From Desulfurella acetivorans A63 (lineage in GTDB: Bacteria; Campylobacterota_A; Desulfurellia; Desulfurellales; Desulfurellaceae): 64,000 bases of DNA. The translations under genes and the position numbers were made by a program. The notes under the pieces are model-generated. The model worked only from the letters and a program-made list of their open reading frames with translations. It did not search any database and was not told the DNA's origin. Numbering within the stretch: position 1 is the first letter of the stretch; every line of letters starts with the position of its first letter. The stretch is from assembly GCA_000517565.1 (NCBI GenBank), contig CP007051.1, positions 1,403,949 through 1,467,948 on the forward strand, given 5' to 3'. Shown here in pieces: positions 7,301 to 49,703 of the stretch.

Positions 7301-10206
7301 ATGAAATAAACTTAGTTATAGATAGCAAAAAAGTTAAAGCTTTTGAAGGTCAAACAATACTGGAAGCAGCCAGAAATGCCGGTATAAAAATTCCGACACT
7401 TTGTGCTTTTGAGCATTTAAAACCTTACGGCTCATGCAGATTATGTATTGTTGAGATAGAAGGCAAAAAAGGATTTTCTGCAAGCTGTACAACATTGGCC
7501 CAAGATGGCATGGTTGTTTGTACTCAATCAGAAAAAATTAACAAAATAAGAAGAAATATTTTAGAACTTTATTTAAGCGAACACAACTTTGATTGCACAA
7601 CCTGCTCAAATAATTTAAGATGCGAGCTTCAAGAAGCTGCAAGTCTAGTTGGCATAAGAGATGTAAGATTTAATACAAAAACACATATAAAAAGCTACAA
7701 AGATAGTTCAAATCCTTATTTTGGGTTTGACTCATCAAAATGCATAATGTGTGCAAGGTGCGTGAGGGCTTGCGATGAAATTCAAGGAAATTTCGCTCTA
7801 ACAATACTATCAAGAGGATATGATTCGCATATTAAACCAGGTATTAACGATTTTATTAATTCAGAGTGCGTATCGTGTGGCGCATGCGTAAAGGCTTGTC
7901 CAACGGGTGCTTTAATTGAAAAAAATGTTGTCCAAAATGGCTCTGGTTATAATTTTACAAAAACTACATGCGGTTTTTGTGGTGTTGGCTGTCATGTAAT
8001 TGTTGAATCAAAAGCAAATACAATAGTGAATATCGTTGGAGACGATAAAGGTCCAAATGAAGGCCATTTGTGCGTAAAGGGGCGATTTGCTTGGGAATTT
8101 GTAAATTCAAGTGAACGCATAAAAAAACCACTTATAAGAGAAAAAATTACTGATGATTTCAAAGAAACTACACTAGAAGAAGCGCTTGATTTTGTTGCAT
8201 GGAAGTTTAAGAATATTAAAGAAAAATACTCAAAATATGCACTTGCTGCCCTTGCCTCTTCAAGATGCACAAACGAAGAAGTTTTTTTGGTTCAAAAATT
8301 AGCCAGATGCGCATTTGAAAACAACAATATTGATAATTGTGCCAGAGTATGCCATATGCCAACCGGTTTTGCGCTTGGCTTAGCATTTGGAACCGGTGCT
8401 GGCACAGCAGATATTGAATCTCTAAAAAAAGCCGAATGCATAATGGTGGTAGGCTCAAATACAACACATGCACACCCTGTGGTTGGCTCATTGATCAGAC
8501 AACTTGCAATATCAGGTAAAAAACTCATAGTTATTGATCCAAGAGGAATAGATTTAGCAAAACAACCTCATATAAAAGCTCTCCACCTGCAACCATACCC
8601 AGGTACAAATGTTGCTTTATTAAATTCAATAGCTCATGTAATTGTGAAAGAAAATCTGGATGATAAAGATTTCATAGAAAACAAATGCGATATAGATTAT
8701 TTCAAATTATGGCTGGATTTCATATCAAGTGACGAATACAATCCAACTAATGTATCAAAAATAGCAGGTGTAGATAGCCATTTAATTGAAAAAGCAGCCA
8801 GAGAATTTGCCACTTCAAAAAAAGCTACAATTGTTTACGGTCTTGGAGTAACTGAACATACATTTGGCTCAAGCGGTGTTTTTTGTTTAACTAACCTTGC
8901 AATGTTGTGTGGCTTTATAGGAAAAGAAGGCTGTGGTGTTTCGCCTTTAAGAGGCCAAAATAATGTTCAAGGCGCTTCTGATATGGGTGCTTTTCCAAAT
9001 GTATTTACCTTTTATAGGCATATAAGCGACGAACAAACACGCAAAACATTTGAATCTGTATGGAAAAAGATACTTGATACAAACGTTGGTTTTACTATAC
9101 CTCAAATGTTTAAAGCAGCAATTGATGGTAGACTTAAAGGTATGTATATTGTAGGAGAAGATGTCTTCCAAACTGACCCAAACACTTACCATATCAAAGA
9201 GGCATTGAGTTCTTTAGAATTTCTTGTAGTGCAAGAATTATTTTTAAGCCCAACTACACAATTTGCCCATGTGGTGTTGCCAGGTTCATCGTATTTAGAA
9301 AAAAATGGCACATTCACAAACTGGGAAAGACGGGTCTCAAAAGTTAACAAAGTTATAGAACCACTAAGCGGCATTGATGAGTATAAAATCATCACTGAGC
9401 TTTCAAAAAAGCTTGGCTATCCTATGGATTACAATAGCGAAGAAGAAATATTCAACGAAATTGCTCTACTTAGTCCACAATTTAGTACTTTAACTTATGA
9501 GAAACTACAAAATTACGGCTCGCTATTGTGGCCAGTTGATAGTAAAAATCAAACAGGCACACGTATACTTCACACAGACGAGTTTTTAAACAAAAAAGGC
9601 AAATTTTTCATAACCAATTATGTAGCAAACCAATTGCCAAACGATACCTACCCTTTTATATTGACAACTGGCAGAAACCTATATCATTACAATTCAAGCA
9701 ACCAAACACGCAAAACTAAAAATGTTGCTTTTTATGATGCTGATTACCTTGAAATTAACGAAAAAGACGCTGTTAAGCTAAATATATCAAATAATGATCT
9801 GGTTGAAGTCAAAAGCGAAAGCGCAAAAATCACATTAAAAGCAAAAGTTACAGATAAAATAAAGCCTGGTGTTTTGTTTACAACATTCCATTTTACAGAC
9901 CCAAAGACAAATGCCTTATTGTCACAAAATACTGATTGGGCTACAGATACACCAGAATATAAATTTATGCTTGTAAATATTAAAAAAGCAGATAAAGAAA
10001 CATACGAGATAAATCAAACTAAAAATCCAGGCATTTTGGAACAATACATAAAGATTTTTAAATTTTTTGAAAAATACCCACAAGAAACAAGAACCCAACT
10101 AATAGTAAATCATATAAAGAAAAATTGGGACACGGATAAAATTAATACATTGAAAACAATTGAACCAATTGATTATCAACTAAAACAGGTAATAGAAAGA
10201 GTTTAA
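7297..10206 (+). CDS. fdsA: NAD+-dependent formate dehydrogenase catalytic subunit (NuoG/FdhF-like)
   Basis: The 969-residue molybdopterin subunit oxidises formate to CO2 (or runs in reverse). Domains in order: [2Fe-2S] ferredoxin (about 1-80, CAFEHLKPYGSCRLC), His/Cys [4Fe-4S] site (HNFDCTTCSNNLRC), a two-cluster ferredoxin (CIMCARCVRAC and CVSCGACVKAC), then the FdhF core with its own cluster (CGFCGVGC). The active site reads ARVCHMPTGF, so the metal ligand is cysteine and not selenocysteine. The C-terminal dinucleotide-binding domain contains TGRNLYHYN. This is the FdsA architecture of soluble NAD-linked enzymes. No fdhD or fdsD lies next to it. Confidence 0.93.
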   Translation: MNEINLVIDSKKVKAFEGQTILEAARNAGIKIPTLCAFEHLKPYGSCRLCIVEIEGKKGFSASCTTLAQDGMVVCTQSEKINKIRRNILELYLSEHNFDCTTCSNNLRCELQEAASLVGIRDVRFNTKTHIKSYKDSSNPYFGFDSSKCIMCARCVRACDEIQGNFALTILSRGYDSHIKPGINDFINSECVSCGACVKACPTGALIEKNVVQNGSGYNFTKTTCGFCGVGCHVIVESKANTIVNIVGDDKGPNEGHLCVKGRFAWEFVNSSERIKKPLIREKITDDFKETTLEEALDFVAWKFKNIKEKYSKYALAALASSRCTNEEVFLVQKLARCAFENNNIDNCARVCHMPTGFALGLAFGTGAGTADIESLKKAECIMVVGSNTTHAHPVVGSLIRQLAISGKKLIVIDPRGIDLAKQPHIKALHLQPYPGTNVALLNSIAHVIVKENLDDKDFIENKCDIDYFKLWLDFISSDEYNPTNVSKIAGVDSHLIEKAAREFATSKKATIVYGLGVTEHTFGSSGVFCLTNLAMLCGFIGKEGCGVSPLRGQNNVQGASDMGAFPNVFTFYRHISDEQTRKTFESVWKKILDTNVGFTIPQMFKAAIDGRLKGMYIVGEDVFQTDPNTYHIKEALSSLEFLVVQELFLSPTTQFAHVVLPGSSYLEKNGTFTNWERRVSKVNKVIEPLSGIDEYKIITELSKKLGYPMDYNSEEEIFNEIALLSPQFSTLTYEKLQNYGSLLWPVDSKNQTGTRILHTDEFLNKKGKFFITNYVANQLPNDTYPFILTTGRNLYHYNSSNQTRKTKNVAFYDADYLEINEKDAVKLNISNNDLVEVKSESAKITLKAKVTDKIKPGVLFTTFHFTDPKTNALLSQNTDWATDTPEYKFMLVNIKKADKETYEINQTKNPGILEQYIKIFKFFEKYPQETRTQLIVNHIKKNWDTDKINTLKTIEPIDYQLKQVIERV

Positions 10207-37157: not shown

Positions 37158-38615
37158 TTAAATCCTAACTATAGTATAAGTATTCTTTCCTTTTTGTTTT
37201 GAAGCATAAAGTGCATCATCTGCTGCTTTGAATATTGCTTCTTTTGTTTGAGGGTGCGTTTTATATATGCCTATGCTGACACCTATGTTTAAATCCATAT
37301 TGTTTGTAAAGATCAGACTGTTTATAGATTTTATTATTCTTTTTGCAATCATTTCTAAGTCTTTTTGGTCTTCAAATGAATCCGTAAGTATAGCAAACTC
37401 ATCTCCGCCTACACGTGCAAGTGTATCATGGGCTCTTATGTTTGATTTAAAGACTTTGGCTACTGTCTTTAGGGCAGCATCGCCACTGTCATGGCCAAGC
37501 GTATCGTTTATCTTTTTAAAGCCGTCTAAGTCAAGAAGCATGAGACAAACCTTTCTTTGGTTTCTGTTTAAGCCTGCTATCATTTGATTAAACCTGTGTT
37601 CAAAGAAGGCTCTGTTTGGTATGTGGGTTAAAATATCGTTGTAGGCTAGATATTCTATGCCTTTTTCATATTTTCTTTTTGTTTCTTCTAAATCAATGGT
37701 TTTGTCAAGTATCCAAAGTATTGTAACAAGACTGGCAAATGCACCCAAAAAAGCTATAGCTATAATGGGATAAATAGATGCTAAAAATCTGTCTAAAAAT
37801 TCGCTTTTTTTGATTGATACAAAAAATGTCAGATTTGATCCATCAATTCTGCTGAAAGCACCTATCTTATCTGTTTTGTAAGCGCTTGAGTAGCCAATAT
37901 ATGAGCCATATTGCTCTTTGGTATTTTTTAGTATTTTTGAGAGTATTCCTGTTTGAATTTTACCTATGCTTTTTGGCGGGATATTTGCTTGCATTAGACT
38001 ATCATTTCTTATAATTCCAAGATCAAGGCTTTTGTATGGCAGAAATATCTGGTCTTTAATAGATTGCAAAACAGGAGCAGATGCTTTTATAAGAAAAGTT
38101 TTATTGCCAAGAGGAAAAGTGACAAAATGTGTCAGGTAGCCTTTGTAGAAATAAGACGGTACAATACAGTATGAGTTTGTATGGAGGCATTCTTTGGCTG
38201 CATCAACTATATGGTTTGGATATATTTTAGAATCTAAAGGCAACTTAAATCCTTCCGGGTATGAAACAATGACTGTGCCGTTTTGTTTGGCTATGGCAAA
38301 ATACTCTACATCTTTATTGTAGAACTCTTTAAATACAGATGTAGCTTTACTTAAAGGCTTGTTTTCCAATTCTTTTTTTATTGCAAAAAGGATATATTTA
38401 CTTGATTGTATGGATTTTGAAACAAGGCTTGAGCTCTGGCGGGCAGCTGTTAGAAGCTCAAGTTTTGTACGATTTAGTTCATAGCTGTATAGGGTAATTA
38501 TAGAACCTATAAAGCTAACAAGCATGATAATGTTAAATATGAGCCAGAATATAAAGATGTATCGTGTGGTTTTATAGGCAAAAATTAGTTTAAACTCTAT
38601 TTTTAAAATCTTCAT
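37158..38615 (-). CDS. Membrane diguanylate cyclase with Cache-like sensor
   Basis: The 485-residue protein has a first membrane helix (about 18-41), an extracytoplasmic domain of about 235 residues with a Cache-like pattern ([27 protein letters not shown]), a second helix (about 283-308) and a GGDEF domain (about 330-485). The active site is GGDEF and an RxxD inhibitory site (RAHD) sits five residues before it, so it should synthesise c-di-GMP with product inhibition. The ligand is unknown; small organic acids are common for such sensors. It overlaps the upstream GGDEF-EAL gene by 4 bases. Confidence 0.9.
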
Positions 38616-41600
38616 AAATCAATTTGCTCTATTGCCTGTTTAAGCTCTTGTTTGTCCATTGGCTTATAAAACAGATAGCCCTGAAAGTAGTCGCAGTTCA
38701 TTGATTTTAAGGCCTCAAATTGATATTGTGTTTCTACGCCTTCTGCTATGGTTTTTATACCTAGAGAATGGGCTAAATAAATTATAGAGTCTACTATGCT
38801 TTTTGTCTTTGGGTTGTCAAGATCTCTTACAAAAGATATGTCTATTTTTAGTATTTCTACATCTAGGCTTGCTAAGTAGAATAAAGAAGAGTATCCTGTG
38901 CCAAAGTCATCTAAAGAAAATAAGATATTGTTTTCTTTTAGTTCTTTTATGAGTCTTGCAACATACTCAAAGTTGTTTAAGAGGGTTCGCTCTATAATTT
39001 CAAGCTTTATTAAGTTGTTTGGGATATTGTGGTATTTTATGTTTGAGATTAGATTATCGCTTAGGTGTCTTTGCTTTAGGCTTTGAGTTGAGAGGTTTAT
39101 TGATATGGGAACGGGCTTTTTTAGTAACTTTAGGTCTTCTAATACCTGGTCTATGATTAACTCTTGTGCATCTATTATAAGGGAAGTTTGCTCAAGGTAT
39201 TCTATAAACTCAGCAGGTGGAATTATTCTATTATCTTTTTTCCAGCGCATTAGAGCTTCTGCACCTACTATTTTTTGGTTTCTATCCACATAGGGCTGAT
39301 AGTAGGCTATAAACTCTTTCTTTAGCAATGCAAGCTCTAAGTCAGCTTTAAGCTGCAATAATCTTGTAGCATCTTTTTCCAATTCTTTTCTAAAAAAGCC
39401 TATCTGGTTTTCTCCTTTTTCTTTAGCATCAGATAGGGCAATATGGGCTTTGTCTAAAAGACCATCTGGAGTGGTTGCATCTTTTGGAAAAAGACTTAGG
39501 CCAATATTGAACGAGATGGATATACTTTTGTCTTTTGCTTTATAGGGCTTTGTTAACTCTAATAGTAATTTAGATATTACAATTAGTATATCTTCTTCTG
39601 CTTTTAAGTCTTTTAAGAGTAGTCCAAACCTATCTGATTCAAGCTTGGAAACTTTATCATAGGGTCTTAGGTTGTCTGTAAGTCTTTTTGCAATTTGCTG
39701 TAAAATGCTGTTTCCTGTTTCAAAACCAAAGGCTTCATTTATCTTTTTAAAGCCAATAGGGTTTATTATAGCTACTGCACCTATGGTTTTTTCATAAGTT
39801 GCACTTTCTATAAATTGTTCTAATGCTTTCTTAAAAGAATAAATATTAATTAAACCTGTAGCAGCATCATAGTTTAAAAGCTTTTCTAACTCCTGTAAGA
39901 GCTCATCATCTTTTACAATCTCTTTGCCTACCGATATGTAGTGAGTTATTACTTTTTCTTCAAAAAAAGGAGTGAAGTTTGCATAAAAGTCTTTTATAGA
40001 ACCGTTTTTTGTTTTATACTGCATTATGCCATAGTAAACCTCGCCGGATTTTAGTGTATTATAAAAATTCTTTGCAAATTCCTTTGAGTGAGTTTTAGAA
40101 GAAAACACAGAATGGTGTTTACCTAAAAGCTCCTGCCTTGAATATCCTGAGATTTCTGTTGCTTTATCGTTTACATAAACAATATTAAAATTACTGTCTG
40201 TAATTATTACAAACTCAAAGCCAGAGTTTAAAGCACTTAGTGTGATTTGAGAAAACCTATCGTCTTGGAGTTTATCTAATATAAACTCAATCTGGTTTTG
40301 TATTACTCTAAATAGAGAGTAGATTTCTCTGTTAAAGAGGTTAGGCTTGCTAGATTTTATAACTAGAGTACCAATAATCTCATTTTTAGAGACTATGCTA
40401 ATAGCACAGCAAGATTTTATCCCGCAAGAGCTTACTATTTTTTTAAATGGATAAAAGCCATGTGAGTCAATTTCATTTACTAAATAAATGCCTTTTTTCT
40501 TAAAACTTTTTAAAAGAGGTGTATGATAATTTAAAGGCGGATTTTTTTCAATAGACTTAATGAGTATTTTTGCCTTATCTAAATAATTGCTGTATTGGCA
40601 ATCTCTGGCTAAGTGGTGAGCAATCTCGATATTTCCATCATTTTTTAAAGCCACATATGAAATTTCCATATCCAGATTATCTACAATAATCTTTGGCAGG
40701 TTTTGCAAAAACTCTTCTTTGCTTCTTGTCCTAAAAGATAGAAAATTTATCTGGTACAGTGTATTGTATATCTTTGACTTTAACTCAAGCTGATCTTCAT
40801 ACCTTACAAGCTTTGTTACATCCCTTGATAGATCCACAAAACGATAGATTTTCCCATTTTGAATAATGGGTATTATTATTGAATCCAGATAGAATATTGA
40901 GCCGTCTTTTGCTTTATTTACGAATCTGCAAGAACAGATCTCTCCAGATAGTATTTTTTTCCAAAGGTTTTCATAAAAAGCTCTATCGTGATAGCCTGAC
41001 TTAAATACTCTTGGGTTTTTGCCAATTAGTTCATCTTTGGAATAGCCTGAGATTTTACATACCGCATCGTTTGCATCTATTATTGTGCCTTCTTTGTCTG
41101 TTATTACTACCCACTCGTGAGATAGGTTTATTGCTTTATCTAAAACAAGCATGTTTTTTTGAGAATCTATCTTTTCTAAAGCAAACGATAAATCACGCGC
41201 AAGTTCTTCTAATAAATATATGCGGTCTTGGTCAAATGAATTTGAAAGCGTATCGTGAATTAGCATGATGTATACTATTTTGCCTTTTTTTAGAATTGGT
41301 ATGGAACAAGCTGAGTGGATATTGTATTTTTCAAAAAAATCATGCCAATAAGAAGTATATGGCAACTTTGATATCTCTGGGATTAGACTTACCTTTTTTG
41401 TGTGGTAGGCTTTGGATACTGAGCCTTTGCCATAGGGGGTATTTTTATTTACACCTATTGTGATTTTTTTTAATTCTTCTTCTAACTCTTTTGTTTTTGC
41501 CCTTGTGTAGATTTGATTAAAAAGATTATTTTGATCAATATAGCCTACTGCACAGTTTAGATAGCCTACTTCATCAACAATTATATCGCAAGCTTTTTTT

Positions 41601-42046
41601 AAGAGCTCTTTTTCATCATCTGTTCTTACTATTAATTGATTTATCTGGCTTAGAGTAAAAAATAACTTTTCGTATGATTTTTCTTTGGTTTTGTCTAGAA
41701 TCAATACCAACCCAGAAGATTTGTTATTGTATTCTACAGTGTAGGCAAATACAGATACGGGAATTATTGCGTTTGATTTGGATTTAAAATAGTGCTCAGT
41801 AAACTCAACTGAAAACTGCTTTCCCTGGGTGCGCATATGTATTATATTTTCAATTTTTTCCATATCAACCATGTCCGGTGGTAAAAATTCCGTTATTTTT
41901 TTGCCTAAAATCTCTTTTTCTTCTTCAAAATCCAGTAATTTGCAAAACCGTTTATTTGCAAAGACTATTTTGCCTTCTTCCTGATATATAAATACACCAA
42001 ATACAGAAGAGTTTATAATGGCTTGAAAAGTTTGTAATGTGTGCAA
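38612..42046 (-). CDS. PAS/GAF multi-sensor protein with degenerate GGDEF and intact EAL
   Basis: The 1144-residue cytosolic protein carries PAS domains near 10-125, 310-425 and 610-720, separated by two GAF-like regions (about 140-300 and 440-600). A GGDEF domain (about 735-890) follows. Its active site reads ESDRF, so cyclase activity is unlikely, though RPYD of the inhibitory site remains. The EAL domain (about 900-1140) looks complete: GAEALMRWK, INLSTQSL, LEIIERTLL, DDFGTGYSSLFYLASL, KIDISFV, AEGVET. It is therefore probably a c-di-GMP phosphodiesterase. TTG 42046 is the start, with GAGG seven bases upstream. Confidence 0.88.
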   Translation of the reverse strand: MHTLQTFQAIINSSVFGVFIYQEEGKIVFANKRFCKLLDFEEEKEILGKKITEFLPPDMVDMEKIENIIHMRTQGKQFSVEFTEHYFKSKSNAIIPVSVFAYTVEYNNKSSGLVLILDKTKEKSYEKLFFTLSQINQLIVRTDDEKELLKKACDIIVDEVGYLNCAVGYIDQNNLFNQIYTRAKTKELEEELKKITIGVNKNTPYGKGSVSKAYHTKKVSLIPEISKLPYTSYWHDFFEKYNIHSACSIPILKKGKIVYIMLIHDTLSNSFDQDRIYLLEELARDLSFALEKIDSQKNMLVLDKAINLSHEWVVITDKEGTIIDANDAVCKISGYSKDELIGKNPRVFKSGYHDRAFYENLWKKILSGEICSCRFVNKAKDGSIFYLDSIIIPIIQNGKIYRFVDLSRDVTKLVRYEDQLELKSKIYNTLYQINFLSFRTRSKEEFLQNLPKIIVDNLDMEISYVALKNDGNIEIAHHLARDCQYSNYLDKAKILIKSIEKNPPLNYHTPLLKSFKKKGIYLVNEIDSHGFYPFKKIVSSCGIKSCCAISIVSKNEIIGTLVIKSSKPNLFNREIYSLFRVIQNQIEFILDKLQDDRFSQITLSALNSGFEFVIITDSNFNIVYVNDKATEISGYSRQELLGKHHSVFSSKTHSKEFAKNFYNTLKSGEVYYGIMQYKTKNGSIKDFYANFTPFFEEKVITHYISVGKEIVKDDELLQELEKLLNYDAATGLINIYSFKKALEQFIESATYEKTIGAVAIINPIGFKKINEAFGFETGNSILQQIAKRLTDNLRPYDKVSKLESDRFGLLLKDLKAEEDILIVISKLLLELTKPYKAKDKSISISFNIGLSLFPKDATTPDGLLDKAHIALSDAKEKGENQIGFFRKELEKDATRLLQLKADLELALLKKEFIAYYQPYVDRNQKIVGAEALMRWKKDNRIIPPAEFIEYLEQTSLIIDAQELIIDQVLEDLKLLKKPVPISINLSTQSLKQRHLSDNLISNIKYHNIPNNLIKLEIIERTLLNNFEYVARLIKELKENNILFSLDDFGTGYSSLFYLASLDVEILKIDISFVRDLDNPKTKSIVDSIIYLAHSLGIKTIAEGVETQYQFEALKSMNCDYFQGYLFYKPMDKQELKQAIEQIDL

Positions 42047-42197: not shown

Positions 42198-44156
42198 TTA
42201 ACTACATCGCATAAGCTTGAGTCTTTCGAGTGCAATTGCTCCAAGATGTGCTATTGCATCTATTGCAACTGTCTGGTCAATTGTTACGGGTTTGTTTAGT
42301 TGTTTTAAGTTTATAGCGATTACACCAAATACACCGTTTGTTGTAATCATCGGTATATAAAGTGCGGTAGCATTTGAAATTGTATCTGTTCCAAAGCCTG
42401 CATTTTTTTTATTGATAAAAGACCAATTAGCTATACCTAAAGTTTCTGAGTTAATTTCAAAATCTTTAGTTTTTGCTCCAACCTTTAATTTATTGTTTTC
42501 ATCAGCAATAAATATAGCGGCTTCAACATTAAATAACTTTTTTATGTGATTTATTAAAATGGATAAAACCTGTTCTTTTGTGCTTGCCATAACAAGATTA
42601 TTGCTTAACTCATAAAGACTTAATTCTCTAAGCTGGCTTTCTTTTAACAGATTTACCTTAGTTTTAAGCTTTGTTGCAAGTACAGAAATAAAAACAATAA
42701 CGACAACATAAACCAAAAAAGAAATTAAATAGTTAAAATTTGAAATATAAAATGTGTATTGGGGTGGTATAAAGAAAAAATCAAATACTAAAACACTAAT
42801 AACTATTGAAACAATCACTGCAGGTATTTCAAAAATTAAAGCATTTAATACTAAAGCAGCTAAAAATATAGACATCAAACTTGAGTGATTTAAGTGATTT
42901 TTTAAAATCAAACTTAGCAGTGTAACAGCACCAATGTTTATAGTAGAATATAAATAATCTTTTATATTTTTAATGCCATACTTTTTCTTTTTTAAAAATT
43001 CTTGAGGTTTTTTATCTTTTGGGGCAATCAAATACACATCAATAAATTCAGTTTGCATAATCAATTTTTCTGGTATAGTTGGTGAAAACATACTAAATTT
43101 GCGTGGTTTTCCTATAACAATTTTTGTAACGTTTTGAGATTTAGCATAATTGACTATTTCTGTAGTTATATCATCACCTTTAATCCAAACAATTTGGCCA
43201 CCTAAACTTCTTACTAAATCAAAAGCCTTATTTAACCATGCCTTTTCTTGATCTGTAAAGTATTGATTTTTTTGCGTTTCAACGTGAACTGCTATCCATT
43301 GAGCATCTATTTCTGTTGCAAATCTATATGTAGCTCTAACAAGCTGCTCTGCATAAGGACTAGCAAATATCCCAACAAGTACTTTTTCTTTGACTGCCCA
43401 AGGTCCTGCTATAGCGTGTTGTTTCATATATGAGCGCATTTTTCCATCAACGCTATCTGCTACAATCCTTAAAGCAATCTGTCTTAATGCAAGCAAGTTA
43501 CCTGATCTAAAGTACTTTCCAATGGCCGCTTGAGCCATATCCCTTACATAAACTTTGCCTTCGTGAAGTCTTTTTAATAGTTCTTCTGGTGTTAAATCCA
43601 CAAGCTTTATCTCGCTTGCTTGCTCTATAAATTTATCTGGCACTGTTTCTTTGATGGCTATATTTGTTATTTGATAGACCAAATCATTTAGACTCTCTAT
43701 ATGCTGAACATTTAGAGCAGTATATACATCTATACCGGCATTTAAAATTTCTTCTACATCTTGATAGCGCTTTACATTTTTAAAATTAGGTGGATTTGTA
43801 TGGGCAAGCTCATCAATTATTACTAATTGGGGCTTGCGCTGTATAATTTTTTCAAAATTAACTTCTTTTAGTTTAAGGCCTTTGTAATCAACAATTAAAG
43901 GCTCTATAACTTCAAGTCCTTCAAGAAGCTTTTCAGTTTCAACCCTTCCATGCGTTTCTGCATATCCTACTACAACATCTATACCTTCTTTTTTTCTTAA
44001 ATGAGCATCTGAAAGCATTGTGTATGTTTTACCAACGCCTGGCGCATACCCTAAATATATGGTAAGTTTTCCTTTTTTTTGCTCAGATGCTTCCTGTTGC
44101 TTTGCAACTTCTAATAATTCTTCTGGAGACGGTCTTTTTATATCATTTTCCTGCAT
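42198..44156 (-). CDS. kdpD: KdpD-like K+ sensor lacking histidine kinase domains
   Basis: A 652-residue KdpD homologue. The N-terminal KdpD domain is strongly conserved (YAPGVGKTYTMLSDAH Walker-like site, DELAHTNPP, DVYTALNVQHIESLND). A USP-like domain (about 250-375), four DUF4118 membrane helices (about 405-500) and a GAF domain (about 520-645) follow. The chain ends at ALERLKLMRCS, where the dimerisation and kinase domains normally begin, against about 890 residues in full-length KdpD. The 150 bases downstream hold no trace of a kinase. No kdpE is present. It overlaps kdpC by 14 bases. Confidence 0.9.
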   Translation of the reverse strand: MQENDIKRPSPEELLEVAKQQEASEQKKGKLTIYLGYAPGVGKTYTMLSDAHLRKKEGIDVVVGYAETHGRVETEKLLEGLEVIEPLIVDYKGLKLKEVNFEKIIQRKPQLVIIDELAHTNPPNFKNVKRYQDVEEILNAGIDVYTALNVQHIESLNDLVYQITNIAIKETVPDKFIEQASEIKLVDLTPEELLKRLHEGKVYVRDMAQAAIGKYFRSGNLLALRQIALRIVADSVDGKMRSYMKQHAIAGPWAVKEKVLVGIFASPYAEQLVRATYRFATEIDAQWIAVHVETQKNQYFTDQEKAWLNKAFDLVRSLGGQIVWIKGDDITTEIVNYAKSQNVTKIVIGKPRKFSMFSPTIPEKLIMQTEFIDVYLIAPKDKKPQEFLKKKKYGIKNIKDYLYSTINIGAVTLLSLILKNHLNHSSLMSIFLAALVLNALIFEIPAVIVSIVISVLVFDFFFIPPQYTFYISNFNYLISFLVYVVVIVFISVLATKLKTKVNLLKESQLRELSLYELSNNLVMASTKEQVLSILINHIKKLFNVEAAIFIADENNKLKVGAKTKDFEINSETLGIANWSFINKKNAGFGTDTISNATALYIPMITTNGVFGVIAINLKQLNKPVTIDQTVAIDAIAHLGAIALERLKLMRCS

Positions 44157-44724
44157 AGTCTTTTTCCATTTTTATTAATGCTAAATTCAGTTCTAAAACA
44201 TTAACCCTATCATGACCCAAAAAACCCAATTGCCTTTTTTTGATATGTTTTGAAACTAATGATTTTAAAACATTCTGCGGTATGTGAGTATACATAGATA
44301 TTCTAGGAATTTGAGAATAAGCAGCCTGAGGTGTAATATCAGGGTCCAACCCACTCCCAGAACCCAGCACCAGAGATGATGGTATTTGCCCTTTGAAGTC
44401 ATTTTTTCTTAAATAAACTATTCTTTCTTCAACACGTTTAACAAGTATCTGGTTTGTTGGACCAAGATTTGATCCACCACTACTCAAAGCATTGTATGGA
44501 AAATCATCAGTTGAAGATGGTCTTGACCAGAAAAGACCTGGGTTTTGAAATGGTTGACCTATAAGTTTTGAGCCTACAGGTTTATTTTCAATATATATAA
44601 GGCTTCCATTGACCTGGCTTTTAAATACAAGCTGACCAATGCCTGTAACGATTAAAGGATATACAACACCGGTTATTATAAATAAAAATGCAAAGACTAT
44701 AAGGCCACTTTTTAAATTTTTCAT
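44143..44724 (-). CDS. kdpC: KdpC, K+-transporting ATPase subunit C
   Basis: KdpC is the single-span periplasmic subunit of the KdpFABC potassium pump. The 193 residues hold one N-terminal helix (about 6-28) and the family motifs SRPSSTDDFPYNALSSGGSNLG and SGSGLDPDITPQAAYSQIPR. The C-terminus contains FLGHDRVNVLELNLAL. ATG 44724 is preferred because GAGGTG ends 6 bases upstream; an in-frame GTG at 44733 is part of that site. It lies between kdpB and the truncated kdpD in a leftward operon. Confidence 0.96.
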   Translation of the reverse strand: MKNLKSGLIVFAFLFIITGVVYPLIVTGIGQLVFKSQVNGSLIYIENKPVGSKLIGQPFQNPGLFWSRPSSTDDFPYNALSSGGSNLGPTNQILVKRVEERIVYLRKNDFKGQIPSSLVLGSGSGLDPDITPQAAYSQIPRISMYTHIPQNVLKSLVSKHIKKRQLGFLGHDRVNVLELNLALIKMEKDYAGK

Positions 44725-44734
44725 ATCATACACC

Positions 44735-46795
44735 TCAATGTATTATGCTTAGAATTACATAAATCAATTTTATAGCTAAAAACGGTAATACTAAGCCACC
44801 ACCACCATATATAAGCAAATTATATATCAGTAATTTTTCTGCTGGCATAGGTTTATACCATACACCTTTTAATGCAAGTGGTGTAAGTAAAGGAATTATA
44901 ATGGCATTAAATATAACAGCAGACAAAATTGCAAGATATGGATTAGCCAAATGCAAAATATTCAATACATTAAGCTGTGGGTATATTGCAACTACAGCAG
45001 CTGGTATAATTACAAAATACTTAGCTATATCATTTGAAATACTGAATGTAGTTAAAGCTCCTCTTGTCATCAAGATGTGTTTTCCTATATCAACTATGTC
45101 TAATAGTTTTGTAGGGTTCGAATCTAAATCAATAACATTTGCAGCTTCACGTGCAGCTTGCGTACCTGTATTCATTGCAACAGCAACATCAGCCTGGGCC
45201 AAGGCAGGAGCATCGTTTGTACCATCGCCAGTCATCGCAACCATCAAACCCTGAGATTGATACTCTCTAACAAGTCTTAATTTATCTTCTGGCTTTGCTT
45301 CAGCTAAAAAATCATCAACACCCGCTTCTGCTGCAATTGTAGCTGCTGTAAGTGGATTATCACCAGTTATCATAACAGTTTTTATACCCATTTTTCTAAG
45401 CTGGGCAAATCGCTCTTTAATACCTTTTTTTAGAATATCTTTTAAATTTACAACGCCTACTATATCATTATCTAAAGTAACAACTAGAGGTGTCGCACCC
45501 TGCTTTGATACTTTTTCAACAATAGATTCAAGATTGTCAGGAATTGTACCGCCATTTTCCAGTATGTAAGCTTTTATTGATTCATAAGCACCTTTTCTAT
45601 ACTTGTGATTTTCAATATCTACACCACTCATTTTTGTACTTGCACTGAATGGTATGATTTTTGTTTGTTGTGAAAGCGACTGGGCTCTTAAGTTATATTT
45701 TCTTTTTGCCAACACAACTATGCTTCTGCCTTCCGGTGTTTCATCACCGATAGAAGCATAAAGCGATATTTTGGCGCATTCTTCTTCTGTGTGGTTGCCA
45801 ACAGGTATAAATTCTGCTGCTTGTCTGTTGCCAAGTGTAATTGTCCCAGTTTTGTCTAACAAAAGCACATTTACATCTCCAGCAGCTTCAACAGCTTTGC
45901 CGGATAATGCCACTACATTTTTTCTAAATAACCTATCCATACCAGCAATACCGATTGCAGGCAAAAGAGCTGCAATTGTTGTTGGGGCAAGGCAAACAAA
46001 TAATGCAATCAAAACCACGAATGACACAGGCTCTCCATGCCCTGAAGAGTTAACAGCATAGACTGACAAAGCTCTGAGGTTAATAACAACAAGTAAAAAT
46101 ACAACGGTCAATGATACAAGTAATACTTCAAGCGCAATTTCATTTGGCGTTTTTCTGCGTTTTGCCCCTTCTACCATTGTAATCATTCTATCCAAAAATG
46201 TCTCGCCGGGGTTGGTGGTTATCTTTACTATAATGGAATTTGCCACTACTTTTGTACCGCCTGTTACTGCACTTCTATCTCCACCTGCTTCCCTTATAAC
46301 CGGTGCAGATTCACCGGTTACAGCAGACTCATTAACAAGTGCTGCACCAGCTACTATTTCACCATCGCTTGGTATTAACTCATTTTCTTTTACCAATACT
46401 AAATCATCTTTTTTTAGCTGGGTAGAAGGTATATCTGTGTATTCACTATCAAATTTTGCCTCTTTAAGTTTATGAGCTGTAATCTGAGTTTTAGTTTTTT
46501 TCAAAGACTCTGCACGCGCTTTACCTCTGCTTTCTGATAAGCTTTCTGCAAAATTTGAAAAAATAACCGTAAACCACAACCACAAAGAGACCCAACCTGT
46601 AAACCAGTAGGGTCCACTTTTTAAACCTGAAATTTCTAGTATAAATTCTATTGTTGTTAAAATACTGCCAATTTCTACAGCCAGCATTACAAGGTTGGAT
46701 TTTAACTCCATAGGGTTTAATTTTTTTAAAGCATTTATTAGTGCAGTTTTTATTAATTCTGGGTTGTATATTGATGTAGTTTTCTTTTGTTCCAT
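44735..46795 (-). CDS. kdpB: KdpB, K+-transporting P-type ATPase subunit B
   Basis: The ATP-hydrolysing P-type subunit of the Kdp high-affinity K+ pump, 686 residues. The phosphorylation site [13 protein letters not shown], the actuator motif VTGESAPV, and the hinge [20 protein letters not shown] are all intact, with membrane helices near 40-80, 215-275 and 580-680. ATG 46795 is chosen with AGAGGTG upstream; a GTG at 46804 overlaps that site. It starts just after the kdpA stop and is 10 bases from kdpC. Confidence 0.98.
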
Positions 46796-46796
46796 A

Positions 46797-48518
46797 TTAT
46801 GCACCTCTTAACATTAAAATATTTTCCAAAAATGGACCTAATGCTAAAGCTGAAAAAAATGTTAAAGCACCCACAATCAATATTACAAGAATAAGCCATA
46901 CCATAAAAGGCACTTTATCTGTAGGAAGCGTACCAACGCTTGGCGGAGTATATTTCTTTTGGGCTAAAGCACCACTCATATATATAATTGCCACTGCCGG
47001 GATGTATCTGCCAATAAGCATAGCAATCGCTGTTGTGATATTATAAAAAACTGTATCTGCATTTAATCCTGCAAAAGCACTTCCATTGTTGTTTGCAGTA
47101 GATGCAAAAGCGTATAGTATCTCACTTAAACCATGTGGACCAGGGTTTAGGATTGAGCTTACACCGGCTTTTGTAATAAAAGCAATAGTTGTAAAAATAA
47201 GTACTAATATACCAGATGTTAGAGCAACAATTATTGCCATCCACATTTCTTTTACTTCTATCTTTTTACCTAGAAACTCCGGAGTACGCCCAATCATCAA
47301 ACCAGCCACAAAAACTGCTATAATGATAAAAGCTATCATAGTGTAAAGACCGGAGCCAACACCGCCAAAAACAACTTCGCTTAACAGCATAAGTACAGTC
47401 GGTACCATTCCAGATATAGGTAAAAGTGAATCGTGCATTGCATCAACAGCACCACACGCTACAGCTGTTGTAGTAGTTGCAAACAAAGATGTGCCACCTA
47501 TGCCAAACCTTACTTCTTGACCTTCAATATAGTGGCCTGTAACACCAAGACGTGATATTAGGGGATCATTTCCTAAAGAAGAAGTGTATTCTATACCCAA
47601 AAAAACAACAAACATTGTTAACATAACAAGGTAAATTGCCCAACCTTGCTTTTTATTTTTTATCATAGACCCAAAAGTGTATGTTAAAGCTGCAGGTATT
47701 AAAATAATTAAAAAAGCTTCAAAAAAATTTGTGAAACCGTTTGGGTTTTCAAAAGGATGCGCAGAATTTGCACCAAAAAAACCGCCTCCATTTGTTCCAA
47801 GTAGCTTAATAGCTTCTTGAGATGCAACTGGACCCATTGGTAAAATTTGATGGCTTACTACCTTGCCTGCATTGATGTAGGGTTCTAAAAGCTGCACCGT
47901 TTTATAGCTACTAAAGTTTTGTATAACACCCTGACTCATTAAGATAACAGCAGCTAATACTGATAAAGGCAGTAAAATATAAAGAGTTGTCCTTACTGAG
48001 TCTACCCAGAAATTGCCAAGATTTGTCGTTTGTTTTCTTGTAAAACCTCTTATCAAAGCCAGCAAAACAACTATGCCTGTAACAGCTGAAAGAAAATTTT
48101 GCACTGCAAGACCAAGCATTTGAGTGAAGTAGCTTGCTGTATTTTCTCCAGAATAGGCCTGCCAGTTTGTATTTGTTATAAAACTCACAGCTGTATTAAA
48201 GGCTAAATCTAGATTAAATCCTTTAAAATGTTGGGGATTTAAAGGTAAAAATTGTTGTAAAACTAAAATTAAAAATAAAACCACAAAACCTATGGCGTTA
48301 AAAATCAACATAGAAATTGCAAATTCTTTCCAATTCATCTCGTAGGTTTCGTCAATATTGGCAATTTTATAAATGAAAATCTCAATTGGCCTAAAAACTA
48401 ATGATAATACAGTTTTTTCTCCATTGAATACATTTGCCATGTAAGAGCCTAATGGCTTTACCAGAAGGCTTACAAGCACAATAAAAACTAAAAATTGTAT
48501 AATGTCGCTAATAGGCAT
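46797..48518 (-). CDS. kdpA: KdpA, K+-transporting ATPase subunit A
   Basis: KdpA is the channel-like K+-binding subunit, 573 residues with about ten membrane helices. The four selectivity-filter loops are visible as [45 protein letters not shown] and [13 protein letters not shown] 48518 has AAGGAGGA 5-6 bases upstream. The frame stays open for 114 bases further upstream, but that part belongs to the riboswitch leader and is not protein. No KdpF-like hydrophobic peptide is seen before it. Confidence 0.97.
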
Positions 48519-48635
48519 AAACTCCTCCTTTTTGCTAAATCTTAAAGATATAATAATATCACACAATGGCAAATTTAAAAGACGTGTTCGCGTAACCTTC
48601 TTTTCGAAGGTTTTTAAATATAAACATAACACACC

Positions 48636-48762
48636 CCATAAAAGTCTACGAGGTTAGCTGACGGGCTCGAGCTTATGAGTGCTCTATCCTTACAAATAAG
48701 GAATTCGCCCCATTACAATTGGGTCCCCCGCGCTTTGCAAATAGCAAAGCTTCGACTATTAA
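48636..48762 (-). ncRNA. ydaO-yuaA type c-di-AMP riboswitch
   Basis: On the minus strand, upstream of kdpA, the conserved core of the ydaO class appears in order: GCGGGGGACCCA (48734-48720 region), GGGGCGAATTCC, AGGATAGAGCA, and the diagnostic GAGCCCGTCAGCTAACCTCG TAGAC (near 48673-48650). A side stem GCTTTGC/GCAAAGC closes one arm and AGTC/GACT can form P1. This class binds cyclic di-AMP and usually switches off potassium uptake and cell-wall genes. The RNA would begin at the predicted promoter start. The expression platform, between it and the kdpA ribosome site, is not resolved. Confidence 0.88.
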
Positions 48763-48767
48763 TATTC

Positions 48768-48796
48768 CTTCTAACATTTATTTTTCAAAAAGTCAA
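48768..48796 (-). promoter_or_regulatory. Promoter of the riboswitch-kdp transcript
   Basis: Minus strand TTGACT (48796-48791), a 17-base spacer and TAGAAG (48773-48768). The predicted start near 48761 coincides with the first bases of the riboswitch. Confidence 0.5.
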
Positions 48797-48931: not shown

Positions 48932-49665
48932 TTGTCTAAAGATAAGTCTCATAGTCTTTTTCCTCTTGTAATTTCAAGCGGTGCATTTTTCCTAAGCTAT
49001 TATACAAGATTAATGTGGAGTATACTATCTGTATATATGCCATTAAAACCTACAATAACCCAGGATGGCCATATTTTCGCACTGTATTTTTTTGGATATG
49101 TAGCTGTCCAAATACCTGCTGGTTTTGTATCAGACAGATTTGATTGTGGCAAAATTATTTCTTTATCTTTAATTTTATTGTCAATAATAACTTTTTTTTC
49201 TGGTATAGTAACAAATATTTATCAAGAGTATGTACTTAGCCTGCTGATGGGCTTTTGTGCAGGTTGGATTTATCCAGCATCACTATGCGCTATAGTTGGT
49301 ATTTTATCTTTCGGTCTTAAAAGCTATAAAACTTCAAGTAAAATGAATTTGAAAATAATAAAAAACAAAAATGTTTTACTAATTTCTTTTGGCGGGTTGT
49401 TATTTTTTGCTTCATACTGGAGCATTACTCTCTTTATGCTTATAAATATTTTTTAGGTATAGGCATTGATAAAGTAATGTCTGGCATTATGTTTTCAAGT
49501 ATGGCTGCATCAGGTTTTTCAAATATGTTCTGGCAAACAAGTGGTATATTGAGTCCTTTGTTTTCATCTTTTATCATAAGCAAATTTGGTTTTTCTATCC
49601 TATGGGTTACATTGTGTGCAATTATTCTTATTGCAAGTACCTTTTATTTAAAAATAAAAACATAA
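48932..49665 (+). pseudogene. Decayed MFS transporter gene
   Basis: The first frame (TTG 48932, 174 codons) encodes the first four or five helices of a major facilitator (YVAVQIPAGFVSDRFD motif A, GFCAGWIYPASLCAIVG), then runs into a basic linker and a single later helix before a stop at 49456. A second frame (from about 49454 to 49665) supplies the end (GIMFSSMAASGFSNMFWQTSGILSPLF...). Together they give about 240 residues where roughly 400 are expected. The gene has therefore lost an internal part and has a frameshift near 49455. It is not expected to make a working transporter. Confidence 0.78.
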
Positions 49666-49703
49666 AACCGACATTACTTTAAAAGTAATGCCGGTTTATT
49701 TTT
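49665..49703. terminator. Bidirectional terminator
   Basis: The hairpin AAACCG-CATTACTTT / AAAGTAATG-CCGGTTT is followed by TATTTTT on the plus strand and is preceded by an A-rich run that gives U residues on the minus strand. It lies between the convergent MFS pseudogene and rhodanese gene. Confidence 0.8.

Follow-up and report, generated by a model that had tools for sequence, protein, structure and literature searches.

In Desulfurella acetivorans A63, a thermophilic sulfur reducer placed by the NCBI taxonomy in the class Desulfurellia of the Campylobacterota, the genes of Kdp, an emergency potassium pump, lie on the minus strand of the analyzed stretch of DNA (the window; 64,000 nt of contig CP007051.1, with a GC content of 32%). 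They are followed by a kdpD gene and preceded by a leader carrying a c-di-AMP riboswitch aptamer. The features of the locus, in the direction of transcription, are:

48768..48796, minus strand: predicted sigma-70-type promoter, read from the consensus by eye
48628..48767, minus strand: c-di-AMP (ydaO/yuaA) riboswitch aptamer (RF00379), found in three of three Desulfurella genomes examined
48633..48654, minus strand: anti-aptamer hairpin ACCUCGUAG-ACUU-UUAUGGGGU, part of the MFE structure (-8.2 kcal/mol, 37 C)
48581..48635, minus strand: candidate terminator GGUGUGUU...AACACGUC (-12.4 kcal/mol), enclosing the hairpin AACCUUC/GAAGGUU
48522..48530, minus strand: kdpA Shine-Dalgarno sequence AAGGAGGAG, read directly
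46797..48518, minus strand: kdpA (PF03814, E-value 7.5e-230; TIGR00680 over cut-off)
44735..46804, minus strand: kdpB (TIGR01497, 965.9 bits; TGES at residues 163-166)
44143..44733, minus strand: kdpC (PF02669, E-value 4.8e-64)
42198..44156, minus strand: kdpD without histidine kinase domains, 652 aa (PF02702, PF13493, PF13492)

The aptamer and its position, the operon, the loss of KdpD domains, the motifs, and the cyclase and phosphodiesterase genes described below are read from the sequence itself. Directly downstream of kdpD (window 38612-42046, minus strand) is a gene for a 1144-aa PAS/GAF/GGDEF/EAL protein, so that c-di-GMP and c-di-AMP genes adjoin in D. acetivorans; kdpD of D. amilsii does not have this neighbor. 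Divergent from kdp (window 48932-49700, plus strand) is a major-facilitator gene broken by a deletion and a frame change, the copy of which in the sister genome G002 is intact (386 aa).

A cmscan search of the whole window matched RF00379 over the full length of the model (positions 1-134) at 48767-48628 of the minus strand, with a score of 92.7 bits (E-value 1.7e-20; gathering cut-off 38 bits) and no broken or non-standard consensus pairs in the alignment. The initial annotation had recognized a ydaO core ahead of kdpABC and proposed this covariance search of the minus strand, and the score, far over the threshold, bears it out. The conserved core GGGGGA, CCCGUCAGCUAACCUCG, and the P1, P2, and core helices are present and kept in the three Desulfurella species. 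The D. acetivorans genome has no RF00379 match other than the kdp leader copy, which lies in the 5' UTR of a K+ gene, with 110 nt between its 3' end and the kdpA start. The aptamer cores of D. acetivorans and D. amilsii share 91% identity, compared with 48% for the upstream flank and 24% for the downstream leader, and one arm shows a compensatory change from CCUUA/UAAGG to CCUCA/UGAGG, a pattern of selection on the riboswitch RNA. A chance match to RF00379 is ruled out by the score and this conservation. It is very probable that the element is a functional c-di-AMP riboswitch controlling kdpABC-kdpD in Desulfurella, with c-di-AMP as its presumed ligand.

Ahead of the aptamer, a -35 hexamer TTGACT (48796-48791) is separated by a 17-nt spacer from an extended -10 element, TG-T-TAGAAG (hexamer 48773-48768); a like arrangement is found in G002 with TAAAAG as the -10. 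This is a plausible consensus reading of a promoter, placing the predicted transcription start at about 48761. The earlier prediction that transcription starts at the first bases of the aptamer holds as to position, which is beside the P1 strand, but the TTGACT/TAGAAG pair was omitted by a strict promoter scanner, which listed six sites, no excess over the 3.7 expected from shuffles. Translation of kdpA is assigned to the ATG at 48518. A longer kdpA open reading frame from a GTG at 48632 is an unlikely start because it runs into the leader, whereas the ATG has a strong Shine-Dalgarno sequence and a KdpA-model match from residue 11.

A riboswitch at this locus had been taken to imply c-di-AMP signaling in the host, and the genome search for a DAC-domain cyclase proposed alongside found a single gene in D. 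acetivorans (G000:C1:274271-274651; 78.6 bits, cut-off 27). The 289-aa protein matches PF02457 (76.1 bits) and the DacZ_P domain PF21755 (28.8 bits), both over the Pfam cut-offs, and has the motifs DGA (DGAFLI) and RHM. Its best NCBIfam match is the haloarchaeal DacZ family NF041371; as the score of 133.9 bits is far under the equivalog cut-off of 430, we call the cyclase DacZ-like only. DacZ relatives occur in some bacteria (PMC6741144). The gene sits elsewhere on the chromosome, flanked by folD and leuA as named from their translations, which accounts for the earlier observation that glmM has no cdaA neighbor. For breakdown, a 730-aa open reading frame encodes a PgpH-type phosphodiesterase with 7TMR-HDED, 7TM, and HD domains, all over cut-off. 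No GdpP-type phosphodiesterase was seen among the DHH matches of the genome; a 319-aa DHH protein looks like NrnA. Two further DHH proteins with internal inserts (547 and 432 aa; G000:C1:679091-680224 and 1126416-1127564, respectively) resemble CBS-containing manganese-type pyrophosphatases, and the gene for the latter is immediately followed by a membrane pyrophosphatase-like gene. Since the genome has both a DAC-domain cyclase and a PgpH-type phosphodiesterase, a host lacking the pathway genes is ruled out and c-di-AMP signaling in Desulfurella is credible, with the DacZ-like cyclase the probable source of the dinucleotide.

KdpD of D. acetivorans comprises KdpD, Usp, DUF4118 membrane, and GAF domains and ends after the last of these, covering 2-649 of the 895 positions in the KdpD model, with the DHp/CA part (650-895) absent. 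Neither histidine kinase domains nor an H-box was found in KdpD of any of the three Desulfurella species (652, 652, and 657 aa), all of which share the same C-terminal end, excluding a local frameshift or assembly error as the cause of the shortening. The loss of the kinase domains corrects the D. amilsii genome paper, in which KdpD was named a putative regulating histidine kinase (PMC5317093). No gene of the D. acetivorans genome other than the kinase-less kdpD passes the KdpD cut-off, and KdpE appears to be absent from this genome, as the best response-regulator match is 35% identical to true KdpE whereas the two true KdpEs used as a yardstick are 68% identical to each other. With the histidine kinase gone from KdpD and no KdpE found, the riboswitch apparently takes the place of the usual KdpDE two-component control.

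The remaining part of KdpD most likely restrains the pump after translation, as a serine kinase with KdpB as its target. In Escherichia coli, KdpD is a serine kinase that inhibits KdpB via the TGES serine, an activity that needs the Walker motifs and is left intact by deletion of DHp/CA (PMC11018627). Walker A (GYAPGVGKT) and the DE of Walker B (IIDELAH) are kept in the Desulfurella protein, as is the TGES serine of KdpB; the adenine-contacting Trp of E. coli KdpD is Tyr in Desulfurella, as in most aligned loci. Direct control of KdpD by c-di-AMP through the Usp domain is unsupported by motif. The Staphylococcus aureus c-di-AMP motif (A/G/C)-X-S-X-S-X2-N-(Y/F) is absent from the Desulfurella Usp domain, which has G-I-F-A-S-P-Y-A-E instead; alignment to 7ji4, a structure of the S. 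aureus KdpD Usp domain, puts Phe in place of Ser244 and Ala in place of Asn249. Ser244 is essential in S. aureus KdpD, and S244A abolishes c-di-AMP binding (PMC8214093). The Desulfurella domain fits the E. coli-type motif RXXXR-X8-WXAV(Y/H) (PMC4686210). From the missing motif, c-di-AMP most likely acts on kdp in Desulfurella via the RNA only, and the input to KdpD would come from its membrane/GAF sensor and not from c-di-AMP.

Folding of the leader suggests a switch. The anti-aptamer hairpin takes up the 3' core of the aptamer together with the opening bases of GGUGUGUU, competing with both the aptamer and the candidate terminator, and in D. acetivorans its probability falls from 0.99 to 0 once the aptamer is enforced; a U-G pair of this hairpin is U-A in D. 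amilsii. The candidate terminator is followed by a U-rich tract, UUUUAAAUUU, at 48580-48571, and its fold is matched by 20 of 300 shuffles. With the aptamer enforced, the terminator probability at 37 C rises from 0.11 to 0.54 in D. acetivorans (0.09 to 0.43 at 55 C) and from 0.001 to 0.59 in G002. The D. amilsii leader (L020 6540-6772) has a nearly identical aptamer, although its expression platform is unrelated to the D. acetivorans one. Its helices were mapped by hand before the aptamer was enforced, and the terminator probability is 0.6-0.8 for the free leader and 0.04-0.18 with the aptamer enforced, a result that held for several choices of 5' end and at both temperatures tried; the predicted termination site is after GGAGGGUUUU. 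Folding thus tentatively favors an OFF switch in D. acetivorans and G002 and the opposite in D. amilsii, the calculations being equilibrium folds of short hairpins.

For D. acetivorans we propose that in the ligand-free leader the anti-aptamer hairpin (48654-48633) ties up the 5' arm of the terminator. Bound c-di-AMP, presumably made by the DacZ-like cyclase and degraded by the PgpH-type phosphodiesterase, would stabilize the aptamer and free this arm, allowing the terminator (48635-48581) to form with its U tract, so that kdp would be off at high K+ and c-di-AMP. The RNA would thereby sense c-di-AMP and set kdp transcription, while the kinase-less KdpD would tune the activity of the pump. We consider this OFF-by-termination mechanism reasonably likely in D. 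acetivorans. Counting against it, the terminator is GU-rich, its U tract is imperfect, and it is only moderately better than shuffles.

The same riboswitch and ligand might instead form an ON switch, c-di-AMP raising kdp expression at least in D. amilsii. The ligand-free leader would then form the anti-aptamer hairpin and a downstream terminator, and the bound aptamer would free GAGGG to pair with the CCCUC arm of that terminator. The D. amilsii probabilities follow this pattern, and the D. acetivorans anti-aptamer hairpin is itself listed as terminator-like by the scanner. However, the main terminator candidate predicts the reverse sign for the D. acetivorans and G002 leaders, the scanner does not call the D. 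amilsii hairpin, whose loop is 10 nt long, and the kdp riboswitch of B. thuringiensis is an OFF switch, as is ydaO of B. subtilis (PMC6488665, PMC5575661); an ON switch is improbable. It is more doubtful still that one aptamer gives opposite outputs through unrelated platforms, OFF in D. acetivorans and ON in the acid-tolerant D. amilsii. If true, such a sign reversal would tie D. amilsii Kdp to acid tolerance and not to K+ starvation.

Control of translation, or termination via Rho, in place of intrinsic termination is unlikely. It would accommodate the fast evolution of the leader downstream of the aptamer and the lack of a U tract at the inner AACCUUC/GAAGGUU hairpin of D. acetivorans. Against this, a hairpin with a U-rich stretch can be drawn in all three species, and the AAGGAGGAG site is clean and some 100 nt away from the aptamer, the folds showing no conserved pairing that involves it.

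Both the riboswitch and kdpA are present in all three Desulfurella genomes and neither is found in 22 other genomes of the phylum grouping (the D. acetivorans genome and 24 others of one class), 19 of which have a DAC-domain gene. A wider survey covered the best 80 kdpA matches in named genomes and is not a global census. The expectation of a riboswitch before most of these loci did not hold; RF00379 precedes kdp at three, all in Phycisphaerales (Planctomycetota) MAGs and each with a 659-aa KdpD lacking kinase domains and a DAC gene:

L038:9564-9733, before kdp: RF00379 riboswitch
L041:5566-5736, before kdp: RF00379 riboswitch
L039:3450-3604, before kdp: RF00379 riboswitch

Their scores are 70.7-73.4 bits, their hosts fall beyond the Bacillales to which such riboswitches were reported to be confined, and in L038 a small KdpF-like frame lies ahead of kdpA. 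By manual count, no riboswitch was detectable at any of the 57 full-length-KdpD loci among the 80. A kinase-less KdpD without a clear riboswitch was seen in Athalassotoga (L029), L046, and L031, the last with a degenerate match. This L031 leader (9747-9860; Actinomycetes MAG FK3.bin172) precedes kdpA, scores 16.9 bits, under the cut-off, and keeps the core helix GCGGGG/CCUCGC and CGACAGCCAGCCUCGCAGG with shortened middle arms; a strong terminator-like hairpin with UUUUU follows. It is possibly a variant c-di-AMP riboswitch or a decayed one.

A KdpB tree joins Desulfurella to Athalassotoga (support 99) on a branch with L031 and Desulfuromonadaceae/Desulfobulbaceae and places the Phycisphaerales elsewhere. 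Given these separate branches, the pairing of riboswitch and kinase-less KdpD seems to have arisen, or come together, on more than one occasion, suggesting repeated replacement of KdpDE by a riboswitch. Inheritance of the riboswitch from the nearest kdp relative is unsupported, as the Athalassotoga genome has no RF00379 match. That absence, in a relative with 68% KdpA identity and the same KdpD form, would suit a relic, an aptamer that arrived with a transferred kdp operon and is now unresponsive, leaving kdp constitutive. The confinement of kdp to Desulfurella within its group and the constitutive kdp suggested for Campylobacterota with truncated KdpD (PMC11018627) are in keeping with this. 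Yet the aptamer has been kept far better than the neighboring leader, with a compensatory arm change, and the cyclase and phosphodiesterase genes are present; we regard a relic as very improbable and favor a working riboswitch.

In literature joining Desulfurella and c-di-AMP we found only general bacterial-signaling coverage naming each once or twice. Already known are the aptamer family, the kdp riboswitch with truncated KdpD and no KdpE (PMC6488665), and the DHpCA-truncated KdpD of Campylobacterota (PMC11018627). New are the riboswitch in Desulfurella, its occurrence with a long KdpD that lacks the kinase, the like combination in Phycisphaerales (although the Nelson 2013 supplement may already list kdp in other phyla), and a DacZ-like protein as the cyclase that probably supplies the c-di-AMP. 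Desulfurella represents a third option beside the Bacillales riboswitch and constitutive kdp, namely RNA-based c-di-AMP control with a KdpD keeping only its non-histidine-kinase parts. As its Usp domain has no known c-di-AMP motif, two inputs mixed elsewhere would be set apart here, c-di-AMP acting on transcription and K+ probably on the pump.

The closest known system is kdpFABC of B. thuringiensis, in which a c-di-AMP riboswitch promotes termination alongside a truncated KdpD and no KdpE, an arrangement reported to be restricted to Bacillales (Wang et al. 2019, PMC6488665). In Desulfurella too, an RF00379 aptamer occupies the kdp 5' UTR, the operon encodes a KdpD that lacks the histidine kinase, and no KdpE was found; the OFF logic predicted for D. 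acetivorans and G002 resembles that of B. thuringiensis. The two differ in KdpD, which in B. thuringiensis is 365 aa compared with 652 aa including membrane and GAF domains in Desulfurella, and in the cyclase, which is of CdaA/DisA type in the former and DacZ-like in the latter. DHpCA-truncated KdpDs described in Campylobacterota and archaea, for which constitutive kdp was suggested (PMC11018627), share with the Desulfurella protein the KdpD/Usp/TM/GAF architecture, the serine-kinase Walker motifs, and the loss of the histidine kinase; in contrast to the constitutive proposal, Desulfurella kdp has a riboswitch in front. The Phycisphaerales loci L038, L039, and L041 also combine RF00379 before kdp with a KdpD lacking kinase domains, but differ from Desulfurella in their KdpB branch, in having kdpF ahead of kdpA in L038, and in their DAC proteins, which score higher and, at 282-290 aa, have a CdaA-like length. 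The ydaO (kimA) and ktrAB riboswitches of B. subtilis share the aptamer family, the c-di-AMP ligand, and the association with K+ uptake genes, and differ from the Desulfurella riboswitch in transporter and host group.
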